From contig JAFZQX010000043.1 in NCBI GenBank assembly GCA_017620205.1, positions 1 through 56,058 on the forward strand: a DNA stretch of 56,058 nucleotides, read 5' to 3'. The position numbers and the translations under genes were made by a program. Positions within the stretch are counted from its first letter, which is position 1, and each line of letters opens with the position of its first letter. Below are positions 3,455 to 52,697 of this stretch, one piece after another. The DNA comes from Clostridia bacterium (GTDB lineage Bacteria; Bacillota; Clostridia; UMGS1883; UMGS1540). The notes beneath the pieces were generated by a model that had not been told where the DNA came from, searched no databases, and was given only the letters and a program-made list of their open reading frames with translations.

Positions 3455-3456
3455 AA

Positions 3457-3510
3457 CGGGGCTGTAGCAAAACAATTTTGTTTTGCTACAGCCCCGTTAT
3501 TTCATTTTTA
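3457..3510 (+). terminator. Strong stem-loop between mgtC and the barstar genes
   Basis: A near-perfect 17-base stem (3457-3473 with 3480-3496; CGGGGCTG/CAGCCCCG) is followed by a T-rich tail. It can terminate mgtC transcription on the plus strand and, less well, the barstar operon on the minus strand. Confidence 0.75.
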
Positions 3511-19501: not shown

Positions 19502-19576
19502 AACTCTTATCAAATACATCCGCGGATAAGAGAGAAAAACGCCGTGCGGAACGGGATTGGAGATTATAAAAAAGCT

Positions 19577-19993
19577 ATGACAGCGAAGGAGTTTTTTGAA
19601 AGGGGCAAGCTTTTATCTGAGGAGATACGCGCGCTGACAGAGGCTATGAGTATAGCATACGCGGAAGCGACAAAAACGGTGTCCGCGCCGACATCCGCTG
19701 CGGTAAAATCATCTTCCCTTCAAAACAAAAGAGAAAACGCAGCTATTAAGTATATGGAGCTTAAAGCCGTTATAACGGCGCGGCTTGCGGAGCTTTTCAA
19801 GATAAAAAAAGAGATATTTGATTTTATAGAAAAGATAGATGACGCGAAATGCAGAACGGTTTTAATTAACCGCTACATAAACGGATATACGTTTGAAAAA
19901 ATCGCGGAAACCATGTATATGAACGAAAGGTGGGTTTACAGAATACATAAGAAAGCGCTTGAAATTTGCGACGAAAAACTAAAAGAGCGCTGA
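19577..19993 (+). CDS. Sigma-region-4-like phage transcription factor (DUF1492/ArpU-like)
   Basis: The 139-residue protein begins MTAKEFFERGKLLSEEIRALTEAM, the typical start of DUF1492-type phage regulators. A helical middle follows, and a C-terminal sigma-70 region-4-like helix-turn-helix (RTVLINRYINGYTFEKIAETMYMNERWVYRIHKKALEIC). A GTG 33 bases upstream is in frame but lacks the family start. Members of this group activate late (terminase) operons in Firmicutes phages. It is the natural candidate to act at the box CCATTGTTTGTCA found before terS and scaffold, which is inference. Confidence 0.85.
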   Translation: MTAKEFFERGKLLSEEIRALTEAMSIAYAEATKTVSAPTSAAVKSSSLQNKRENAAIKYMELKAVITARLAELFKIKKEIFDFIEKIDDAKCRTVLINRYINGYTFEKIAETMYMNERWVYRIHKKALEICDEKLKER

Positions 19994-19997
19994 TTAA

Positions 19998-20180
19998 AGC
20001 TTTGTTTGCATGCAAACAAAATATCGCGCTGCACAAAGTGCAGCATATCACTTTTATGCCGCAGGCATAAATATAACTTTGCGCGCAGCGCGAAATAACT
20101 TATTCGGTGTTATTGCTTCGCAGTGGTATTCGCCTGCGGCGATTGTTATTACTATGTAGTGTTATTTGCCTTAGGCAAGT
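19998..20180. repeat. Array of short palindromes with A/T linkers
   Basis: At least seven small hairpins follow one another: GTTTGCATGCAAAC, GCTGCACAAAGTGCAGC, ATGCCGCAGGCAT, GCGCGCAGCGCG, a degenerate one, TCGCCTGCGGCGA and TTGCCTTAGGCAA. They are separated by linkers such as ATATC, ATAACT and TGTTATT. No gene is visible. It lies just after the phage early gene and before the terminator of the phosphatase gene, so it may mark the boundary of the element. Confidence 0.7.
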
Positions 20181-20183
20181 TAT

Positions 20184-20223
20184 AAAAAAGAGAGCGTCTC
20201 AATTAATCGCTTAATTGAGACGC
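20184..20223 (-). terminator. Terminator of the trmK/phosphatase operon
   Basis: GCGTCTCAATTAA (20194-20206) pairs with TTAATTGAGACGC (20211-20223). On the minus strand the stem is followed by CTCTCTTTTTT, a good intrinsic terminator. It may work in both directions. Confidence 0.8.
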
Positions 20224-20229
20224 TTATTT

Positions 20230-20871
20230 TTATATGGTCTTCGGTATTACGGTTTTAAAGCCCGCAAGGTGTTTGTCGTAACCAACCTTGCCAAGTGTCC
20301 ATTTTCCGTTTTCGTATATAGCTTCCGTGACGGACGCGTTTGATACCCAAGGTATGTTTTTCATTTCGGAAAGCGGCAAATTTTCCATTTCGCACTGCAT
20401 AGCGCGGATTGGTATCGCGTGTGTTGCAACCGCCACCGTTTTACCTTCATTATCTTTCGCAATTTCACAAAGCGCGCCGAGTATGCGCGCGGAAAGCTCT
20501 TTTACGCTTTCGCCGCCCGTACAAGCGGCATGGCCTATATCGGAAATCCACTTTTCATAATCTTCGGGAAAGCGTCTTTCTATCTCGCTAAATGTTATGC
20601 CCTGCCAATCCCCCGCGTAAATCTCACGCAGGTTTTTGCAGGGTATAAGCGGCGCACCGGAGGCTTTTGCTATTATCTTTCCCGTTTTTAAAGCGCGGCT
20701 GAGATCGCTTGCATAAACCTTTGATATTTTGTAGTTTTCCGCTATGTATTTTGCTGTAATTTCCGCCTGCTTTTCGCCCATAGGCAAAAGACGCGCGTCC
20801 GACTGACCGCCGAAAGCCTTGTCACGGTTTGCTTCGCTTTCGCCATGTCTTATAAGTAAAAGAGTTGTCAT
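20230..20871 (-). CDS. Histidine-phosphatase superfamily (phosphoglycerate mutase-like) protein
   Basis: A 213-residue cytosolic phosphatase with the RHG motif (LLIRHGESEAN, residues 6-16) that carries the phospho-accepting histidine, the second conserved arginine (SDLSRALKT), the glutamate in REIYAGDWQG and the second histidine in VAVATHAIPIRAM. This is the branch-1 acid-phosphatase/PhoE/CobC-like group; the substrate cannot be told. It lies 13 bases after trmK and is the last gene of the dnaG-rpoD-trmK cluster, with a terminator beyond it. Confidence 0.9.
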   Translation of the reverse strand: MTTLLLIRHGESEANRDKAFGGQSDARLLPMGEKQAEITAKYIAENYKISKVYASDLSRALKTGKIIAKASGAPLIPCKNLREIYAGDWQGITFSEIERRFPEDYEKWISDIGHAACTGGESVKELSARILGALCEIAKDNEGKTVAVATHAIPIRAMQCEMENLPLSEMKNIPWVSNASVTEAIYENGKWTLGKVGYDKHLAGFKTVIPKTI

Positions 20872-35020: not shown

Positions 35021-35659
35021 TTATTTAGTACCGAAAATTCTGTCGCCCGCGTCGCCGAGACCGGGAACTATGTATCCGTTTTCATTGAGTTTTTCATCAA
35101 CCGTGCCAACGTAAACCTTTACGTCGGGATGTGCTTCACAAAGCGCTTTAATACCTTCGGGAGCCGCGATGATGCACATGAATTTTATGTCTGTTACGCC
35201 GCGCTGTTTAAGGCTGTCAATAGCGTCGACCGCGGAGCCGCCCGTTGCAAGCATCGGGTCTACAACTATAACCTGACGGTTTACGATTTCCGGCGGAACC
35301 TTGAAATAATATTCAACCGGTTTTAACGTTTCATGATCTCTGTAAAGACCTATGTGGCCTACTTTTGCGGAAGGCACAAGCGATAAAACGCCGTCAACCA
35401 TACCGAGCCCGGCACGCAGAATAGGCACAACGGTAAGCTTTTTGCCGCCTATTATCTTAGCTTTTGTTTTGCAGATAGGCGTTTCAACCTCCGTATCCGT
35501 AAGCGGAAGGTCGCGCGTTGCTTCAAATGCAATTAAAATCGCAATTTCTTCAACCAATTCACGGAACTGTTTACAACCCGTTGTCTTATTGCGCAAAATT
35601 GAGATTTTGTGCTGAATAAGAGGATGAGTCATAACCGTTAAATTACTGTAATTTTCCAA
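35021..35659 (-). CDS. upp: Uracil phosphoribosyltransferase
   Basis: The 212-residue enzyme joins uracil and PRPP to UMP. Features: [28 protein letters not shown], the PRPP loop [19 protein letters not shown] and the C-terminal [17 protein letters not shown] at 35659 is the most likely start, since GGGAGGGG lies five bases before it; the TTG at 35674 lies inside that region. The promoter at 35720-35748 drives upp-uraA. Confidence 0.95.
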
Positions 35660-51735: not shown

Positions 51736-51754
51736 AATTTTAATAAATACAAAG

Positions 51755-51790
51755 AAAAAGAGCCGGTTGTTTAAACAACCGGCTCTTTTT
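51755..51790. terminator. Bidirectional terminator between the guaA island and the envelope operon
   Basis: AAAAAGAGCCGGTTG pairs with CAACCGGCTCTTTTT in a near-perfect stem with A and T runs on the two sides. It ends the membrane-protein operon on the minus strand and probably was the original guaA terminator on the plus strand. Confidence 0.9.
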
Positions 51791-52697
51791 CTTTTTCATC
51801 TTTATTTCTTTCTTTTAGTCCTTCCAAAAAGCCGTTCATAAACGGCTTTGTCAGGTCATCGATATTAAGAGAGTACTTGTCTGCGATAAATTCCAATATA
51901 TCATACGGAATTTGAATACGGTTTTTTTCGCCTTTCCCGCCTATCATAACACCGAGTTTGTATATCCCCGCGGTAATTTCACCCGGAGCTGCATCCGATC
52001 TTAAAAGCGCGAGCATCTTATTCCTGCGGATATTTGTCAGGCGGTTTGAAATTATTCTTATTAAATAGCTTAAGAAAAGCCCCAATATAAACAGTATAGG
52101 TATTGCCACCCAATAAGGAAGAACTTCATTTATATGATAAATATCGGGCCAGCCGCCGTTTGTTTCGCCTATCAGTATAACTTCAATAAAATAAGCGATT
52201 ATATATAAGCACAGCGGTATCATTCCGAGCATCTGGTTTTTCAGTGTGTATATGTATCCGTTTTCGGTCTGAAAAAACGAAATCAGAATAAGTACGGGGC
52301 AAAAGATATGTGTAATCAAATTGGCGCCTCCGAAGGCGTCTTTTGGAGACACCCTGCTTATAAAGCATACAACGCAAAAAAACATGACGGTAACGGAAAC
52401 CGCGGCGGTAAAGTGCATAAGCGATATCCAGCGCGGAAGCGTAAAACGCTTTTTCCGTATGCCTTCAACGGCGAAAGGAATTGTAAAAGCCGCCGAGAGC
52501 ATTGCTATTGTGTTTGAAATCATAGTAAAGTAGATAAACGAGAGAAAACCGTTTTTTCCCATTTCAACATTTGTTTTATTAACGCCCGCTATTATCCCGC
52601 AAAAGGCAAGCGCAACCGTCAGACATCCGGCGCAAAGCGCAACTATACTCCGGCGTTTCATAAGCCTTATAAGATAATCATTTTTTCTTATTGCCAT
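51771..52697 (-). CDS. Pr6Pr-family membrane protein
   Basis: The 308-residue protein has about seven hydrophobic segments (near residues 18, 45, 85, 120, 150, 185 in the membrane part) and a C-terminal soluble tail. FLSFIYFTMISNTIAMLSA is typical of the Pr6Pr/FAR-17a-like group. The function is unknown. ATG at 52697 is preferred (AGGGG upstream) over an ATG at 52778, which would overlap the glycosyltransferase by 100 bases. The tail ends in a charged KERNKDEKEKE stretch. Confidence 0.75.
   Translation of the reverse strand: MAIRKNDYLIRLMKRRSIVALCAGCLTVALAFCGIIAGVNKTNVEMGKNGFLSFIYFTMISNTIAMLSAAFTIPFAVEGIRKKRFTLPRWISLMHFTAAVSVTVMFFCVVCFISRVSPKDAFGGANLITHIFCPVLILISFFQTENGYIYTLKNQMLGMIPLCLYIIAYFIEVILIGETNGGWPDIYHINEVLPYWVAIPILFILGLFLSYLIRIISNRLTNIRRNKMLALLRSDAAPGEITAGIYKLGVMIGGKGEKNRIQIPYDILEFIADKYSLNIDDLTKPFMNGFLEGLKERNKDEKEKEPVV

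Follow-up and report, generated by a model that had tools for sequence, protein, structure and literature searches.

What is the row of short palindromes that stands between a block of phage-like genes and a histidine phosphatase gene in this Clostridia genome? The original prediction for the window (the whole stretch of 56,058 nt that was analyzed) was that at least seven different short palindromes with recurring linkers lie exactly at the edge of the phage block, and that they might represent a structure related to replication or recombination, or an arrayed repeat type found in Clostridia. The descriptive part of this prediction was borne out. Eight hairpins, each with its own sequence, occupy positions 20001–20178 (read from the sequence, with the three longest script-listed; Table 1), the linkers recur, and the array begins 7 bases past the stop codon of the last phage-like gene, with portal, adaptor and packaging protein genes to its left.

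The array in the window and its surroundings

The linkers of the left half, from ATATC to ATAAC, are the reverse complements of the word type found in the right half, from GTGTTATT to GTTATT, a mutual inversion that goes beyond the predicted recurrence. Thus, the array consists of two mutually inverted blocks and has its centre at 20095–20114. We denote a block in which a hairpin is followed by AATATCAC as u' and a block in which GTGATATT is followed by a hairpin as u; by eye, the block order in the window is u'-u. The linkers of the right half belong to the class GTKDTATT, and those of the left half are of the ATATC/ATAAC type. The segment 20107–20130 matches the pattern GTKDTATT-hairpin-GTKDTATT exactly, and this linker class is common to the canonical arrays of other Clostridia. 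Five perfect hairpins (stem of at least 5, loop of 2 to 4) were counted in 20001–20184, compared with a mean of 0.92 and a maximum of 4 in 1,000 dinucleotide shuffles. Among 1,215 segments of the same size along the 56 kb (step 46), one contained five perfect hairpins, at 35559, where the sequence is, by eye, plain AT-rich. The RNA folding z-scores for 19994–20240, a span that includes the terminator, were −5.3 and −6.0 on the two strands. Elsewhere in the window, at 3455–3498 and 51751–51794, there are very long perfect hairpins with 21-bp stems, probably terminators.

Table 1. Components of the hairpin array and adjoining features, in window coordinates.
Feature	Position	Strand	Sequence or description	Basis or remark
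Left neighbor	19544–19993	+	phage-like DUF1492/Sigma70_r4 protein	last gene of the phage block; outside the array
Hairpin 1	20001–20020		TTTGTTTGC-AT-GCAAACAAA	script-listed; conserved first hairpin in three arrays of the same genome
Linker	20021–20025	−	ATATC, reverse complement GATAT	read from sequence
Hairpin 2	20028–20044		GCTGCAC-AAA-GTGCAGC	script-listed
Linker	20045–20052	−	ATATCACT	read from sequence
Hairpin 3	20053–20071		TTTATGCC-GCA-GGCATAAA	script-listed
Linker	20072–20077	−	TATAAC	read from sequence
Hairpin 4	20078–20094		TTTGCGC-GCA-GCGCGAA, one T-G pair	read from sequence
Array centre	20095–20114		linker ATAAC (20095–20099), 7-base spacer, inverted linker GTGTTATT (20107–20114)	
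Hairpin 5	20115–20121		GC-TTC-GC	canonical arrays of other Clostridia have the same hairpin and linker class
Linker	20122–20130	+	AGTGGTATT	read from sequence
Hairpin 6	20131–20141		CGCC-TGC-GGCG	read from sequence
Linker	20143–20150	+	TTGTTATT	read from sequence
Hairpin 7, weak	20151–20160		ACTA-TG-TAGT	read from sequence
Linker	20161–20166	+	GTTATT	read from sequence
Hairpin 8, then GTTATA	20166–20178		TTGCC-TTA-GGCAA	read from sequence
Gut-1 (RF01706) match	20121–20190	+		33.4 bits, E 5.5e-5; gathering score 50
Terminator-like hairpin	20193–20224		14-bp stem	adjoins the array; 3' end of the minus-strand gene
Right neighbor	20230–20871	−	histidine phosphatase gene	convergent; outside the array

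Two known types of element were considered and rejected. A CRISPR array does not fit because the hairpins all differ, only the linkers of 5–9 bases recur, and there are no identical direct repeats. A 23S rRNA intervening sequence does not fit because the array lies between two protein genes and Rfam reports no rRNA in the window.

A genome-wide search revealed arrays in a handful of places in 2.34 Mb, rather than at random in all intergenic regions. The four relatives found by similarity are C33:81533, C33:83185, C36:47254 (71–76% identity), and C43:17704, the last of which corresponds to a part of the right half (44 bases at 84%). Further single unit pairs matching the linker pattern are located at C12:39105 and C33:66238; the linker-pattern search gave 18 places, compared with 5 for the reversed control. 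All five arrays of this genome are intergenic, either between convergent genes or past a stop codon, and three adjoin terminator hairpins. The nearest neighbors of the other four encode a LysM protein, a 488-residue protein without Pfam match, DNA polymerase III alpha, a protein with copper-amine-oxidase-N and PdaC domains, SpoIIR, and phosphoglucomutase and SIS/amidotransferase domain proteins (GlmM- and GlmS-like). The array on contig C36 has the order u'-u, as in the window. On contig C37 of the same genome, a Y1-transposase gene is flanked by repeat copies of the GTACGTCCCCTTTTGTCC type.

A link to the phage block was not supported. Only for the window array is the nearest neighbor recognizably phage-like; thus, judged by nearest neighbors, the phage edge is one case in five. 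No DNA similar to the window array was detected among 50,697 phage records or 72,556 plasmid records, and a phage or plasmid origin of the array was rejected on these grounds. The 24-base unit pattern described below occurs in two stretches of a viral contig collection. An unannotated faecal phage record (MT835815.1) contains, by eye, a tRNA, a terminator, a canonical array and a PF05635 gene in consecutive order, which counts against dismissing a phage-encoded structure.

Related arrays in Clostridia and compensatory change

The unit pattern, GTKDTATTGCTTCGCAGTKDTATT, is present in at least 116 stretches of genome contigs. Among the 80 matches listed, the titles name Clostridia, Oscillospiraceae, Clostridiales or Bacillota, and most name animal-gut samples, so that the suggestion of an arrayed repeat type found in Clostridia was right. 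With up to two mismatches, the pattern occurs at 4 places in the genome of the window. It is present in 8 of 28 genomes of the order, and five other genomes, picked because they were already known to contain loci, have 17, 13, 11, 22, and 1 places; the reversed-pattern control gave 0 throughout. As for the window array itself, its u block is similar to DNA in two genomes of the same order, and at the chosen E-values no match to the array was found in 20 of the 22 further genomes of the order or in 5 further genomes of the family. An exact search of genome contigs with the first hairpin of the arrays of this genome, in which the records nearest to this genome were perhaps excluded, gave none.

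In the relatives, the canonical plan extends over about 200 bp and consists of a terminator-like hairpin called hp0, four linker-plus-hairpin units, a centre resembling GGCGAATAAAATATCACT, and three inverted units, with u usually preceding u'. Scanning the linker order across the collected loci gave 75 u-u' arrays, 51 one-sided arrays and 2 u'-u arrays. Both u'-u counts represent the single array on contig C36, seen in two overlapping loci, and the window array was missed by the scan because its linkers are more varied, its order being read by eye. Thus, the reversed order is known only from the genome of the window. The window array is also not canonical in that it has no hp0 in the canonical place, no pairing centre and no canonical right end. 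At one locus, the array is expanded and has over four u units ahead of the centre.

The hairpins have undergone compensatory evolution. From 124 pattern places, 61 passed the canonical-array filter and 53 were aligned, eight having been left out by hand for long inserts, other lengths or a tandem copy. Across the 53 arrays, 97.5% of 1,743 cells are paired, compared with a shuffled mean of 71.9%, and two-sided changes number 404, compared with a shuffled mean of 108.4; sliding the pairing partners abolishes the signal. Base pairing also joins the array centre to the first linker and hairpin arm, and one position there is U-A in 23 arrays, A-U in 17 and C-G in 11. Wobble-type cells are rare, with 11 G-T and 20 A-C cells among the 1,743; 12 of the A-C cells fall at one centre-helix pair, and 8 remain without it. 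In 40 tRNAs from the relatives' loci, G-T accounts for 59 of 859 pairs; because the tRNA finder itself demands pairing, only this G-T share is a fair yardstick. Given the few G-T pairs, we read the arrays as palindromes at the DNA level; the near symmetry of G-T and A-C suggests selection on DNA palindromes, and the wobble profile, as far as sequence comparison goes, argues against an RNA function.

One half of such an array corresponds to an entry in Rfam, the Gut-1 RNA (RF01706), hence the name Gut-1 arrays. The Rfam model has three hairpins joined by GUGAAAU-like linkers, an arrangement also found inside related Clostridia arrays; the arrays differ from it in being an inverted pair of such blocks, sometimes beside a protein gene, and apparently act at the DNA level. 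The alignment in the window spans the full length of the model, with the hairpins separated by the repeated short linker, at a score below the gathering score. On the u block, the model reached the gathering score in 4 of 11 loci, as it did in 4 of 20 PF05635 loci; in a second set of 20 loci, with GCTAAA and GTKDTATT loci included, it was above the cut-off in none. Thus, the Rfam model covers only part of the family. The units, the linker class and hairpin 5 of the window array are those of the family, so we take it as a Gut-1-type array, an assignment that is very probably correct. The original description of Gut-1 rated it "Y" as a biological RNA, in human gut only (PMC2864571). In open-access PubMed Central, searches for "Gut-1 RNA" and "Gut-1 motif" returned nothing, and RF01706 was found only in its original description.

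A protein family linked to the arrays

A gene of the family TIGR02436/PF05635 lies directly to the right of the canonical array at 4 of the 124 pattern places, and the remaining places have other or no reading frames there. Thus, most arrays of the GTKDTATT class stand without the gene. The family is present in 13 of 28 genomes of the order (32 matches) and in 39 of 118 sampled genomes of the class. The genome of the window contains one PF05635 gene, on another contig, directly after the tmRNA and with a GCTAAA-type array; a PF05635 gene of the GTKDTATT class was found neither beside the window array nor elsewhere in this genome.

We retained 57 of 63 PF05635 hits, dropping those at contig ends and duplicates. 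Inverted repeated 6-mers with a score of at least 5 were present upstream of 27 of these 57 genes, compared with 30 of 1,140 shuffles and 8 of 69 other genes. The upstream arrays follow a like plan with various linker words, namely GCTAAA, TGAAAT, CGATATG, ATGATATG, ATGAATTG, GTGAAGTT and others. These words agree with the protein clades: on a tree of 55 of the 57 proteins, 12 label classes (11 linker words plus "none", assigned by eye) require 12 changes, with a minimum of 11 and a shuffled mean of 34; the GTGATATT and ATGAATTG classes each require two. Four genomes have several PF05635 genes and several linker classes. A separate clade of 12 proteins is devoid of arrays, and seven further array-less genes lie elsewhere on the tree (six in one branch, plus one); some array-less genes have low-complexity direct repeats instead. 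The agreement between linker and protein could result from co-inheritance as one unit, without binding.

The array-bearing genes are enriched behind tRNA and tmRNA genes. A tRNA or tmRNA gene is present within 700 bp upstream on the same strand of 14 of 36 array-bearing PF05635 genes, and within 700 bp upstream of 0 of 21 array-less ones and 0 of 104 other genes. For the GTKDTATT class, all seven genes show the same arrangement: the last linker leads into a −35-like box, a −10-like box follows at 17 bp, and a ribosome-binding site comes next. Thus, an array of this class lies between a terminator-like hairpin and a promoter. At three loci, including L166, the gene is located between the two blocks rather than after them. 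Ten downstream genes were examined; five had no Pfam match, and the other five matched DUF4357 with a weak GIY-YIG, a weak pyrophosphatase, DUF4288, a WapI-like domain and GNAT, so that no recurrent second gene was found among the ten.

Some loci have other repeat forms upstream of the gene. One has a long tandem repeat with a unit like GTATAGAATTAGGTCTAGTCCGGAG and no hairpin array. Eight others, L062, L163 and L179 among them, have short AT-rich tandem words (AATGAATAATG, GTAATAAGTAATAG) without hairpins, inverted on the two sides of a terminator-arm copy; this may represent the plan in a simpler form. In locus L148 (3697–5089), a TGAAAT and a GTKDTATT element lie close together; in the first element another gene follows the PF05635 gene, and the hp0 of the second element lies shortly past this additional gene.

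The PF05635 protein of this genome is predicted to form four helices (mean pLDDT 95.4). Its fold matches 2rld, an entry with five chains, at Z 21.8 with 51% identity, and 2gsc at Z 17.7. The match to Avd of diversity-generating retroelements (4dwl, 8ub8) gave Z 14.5–15.3, rmsd 1.8–1.9 and 11% identity, only slightly above unrelated helical bundles (Z 13.4 and lower). Avd forms a nucleic-acid-binding ring. We know of no catalytic site in PF05635. The protein encoded beside the gene-bearing arrays is a full-length member of the family, which is known as the 23S rRNA intervening-sequence protein; in contrast to such intervening sequences, its gene is intergenic here, beside hairpin arrays and outside the 23S rRNA gene. 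A resemblance of PF05635 to Avd is also described in PMC10053308. Among titles and abstract starts in open-access PubMed Central, no paper was found that joins the arrays to the PF05635/TIGR02436 protein.

The arrays are dispersed. At the 79 of 124 places with enough flank, compared all against all, the left ends of the repeats cluster at the first linker and also, for more similar pairs, at hp0, and the flanks are unrelated. In the most similar pairs, the repeat extends over about 330–370 bp. Loci L120 and L134 have the array in common, and only L134 has the PF05635 gene; at its right end, the L134 element looks, by eye, like the right end of gene-less copies of the L080 group. Miniature inverted-repeat elements (MITEs) likewise have gene-less copies that share parts with gene-bearing ones, but the copies described here begin with a hairpin array, and no known transposase was matched. 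Five genomes of one genus were matched at the murF-ddl site. At this orthologous site, L216 has a u block, the protein gene and a u' block, L218, from a second species, has an array without the gene, and L217, from a third, has no such array; a fourth locus, L219, corresponds to L166 and has the array together with the gene. Downstream of the protein gene, or of the gene behind it, hp0 occurs again in 4 of 34 loci (L062, L163, L179 and L180); a companion test covered the 22 of 31 loci in which a hairpin of at least 9 pairs was present. In L179, the repeat is identical at 38 of 40 bases. In L163, it is part of a larger tandem duplication, in which tRNA-Leu and its flanks stand on both sides of the array and the PF05635 gene, with direct repeats of 169 and 213 bp. 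In another locus, two gene-less elements stand in tandem, 336 bp apart and 91.6% identical over 356 columns. A link to DNA mobility is therefore plausible, given the dispersed copies, some of them beside one protein family and near tRNA genes.

Possible nature of the arrays

On balance, we favor the reading that the arrays are the recognition DNA of a mobile element in which PF05635 is the sole recurrent gene, and that the array in the window is an orphan remnant. A gene-bearing element would comprise hp0, four units, the centre, three inverted units, a promoter, the PF05635 gene and, optionally, a variable small gene. The PF05635 protein, with its Avd fold, would bind the hairpin-plus-linker units as DNA; this binding would mark the element, and probably mobilize it to the 3' ends of transcription units, the necessary nuclease or polymerase coming from the host or from a different element. 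In addition, the protein may act as a switch for its own promoter, which lies immediately next to the array. The copy in the window would have lost, or never had, the gene. Because it lacks hp0 in place, the pairing centre, the right end and a gene of the same class, and has its two blocks in reversed order, we regard it as an orphan, permuted remnant. It is probably an inert spacer between convergent genes now, and the reversed order might, as a guess, have arisen when the 3' block from one copy became joined to the 5' block from a second.

A structured non-coding RNA (Gut-1), or an mRNA leader for control by the four-helix-bundle protein or another factor, would account for the cataloguing of the half-array as a Gut-1 sRNA in Rfam, for the strong folding and for the covarying base pairs. 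We nevertheless consider an RNA unlikely, because wobble pairs are about as rare as A-C mismatches, unlike in the tRNAs of the relatives' loci, and because an array of the GTKDTATT class, placed between a terminator-like hairpin and promoter-like boxes, should hardly be transcribed. In locus L171, moreover, Gut-1 matches one array half on one strand and the other half on the opposite strand, an arrangement more in keeping with inverted DNA units than with a single RNA. The position of the copies in this genome, between convergent genes or after stop codons and in three cases beside terminator hairpins, would also suit host-serving 3'-end structures, such as bidirectional terminators or gyrase-type sites. 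However, the array is absent from the same site in a neighboring species, the number of pattern places per genome ranges from 0 to 22 with differing surrounding genes, and the fixed 4+3 plan is more than termination needs, so that such a host function also appears improbable.

Among known repeats, the closest in appearance are the REP/BIME sequences spread by RAYT (Y1) transposases, which, like the arrays, are inverted, palindromic, intergenic, multicopy units with a short word beside the hairpin; if the arrays were of this kind, the link to PF05635 would be secondary. Although the genome of the window has two Y1_Tnp genes, by eye no such hairpins lie within 1.5 kb of either, and a RAYT origin was rejected for this reason. 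The linker words follow the PF05635 clade and differ from the REP tetranucleotides (GTAG/GGAC), and the arrays have a non-Y1 protein and a fixed 4+3 plan; a REP-like system of this type thus seems very unlikely.

Returning to a mobile element with PF05635, we tentatively put forward a broader version, which may well prove too inclusive. The arrays would be the cis-acting DNA of an undescribed class of mobile, cargo-carrying elements with clade-specific linker words. Their sole dedicated protein, an Avd-like four-helix bundle, would recognize the hairpin together with the linker, and the elements, having no transposase themselves, would insert downstream of terminators and tRNA genes. The 23S intervening sequences, the Gut-1 "RNA" and many short inverted repeats of gut bacteria would be branches of this class, and the array in the window an inside-out relic.

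The orphan "RNA" Gut-1 and the large orphan family PF05635 seem to be the two components of a single system. If this is true, a source of repeated DNA in gut Clostridia would be explained, a mobile element would exist in which the sole recurrent protein has the Avd fold and no known catalytic activity, and the functions of both Gut-1 and PF05635 would become testable by a simple binding experiment.
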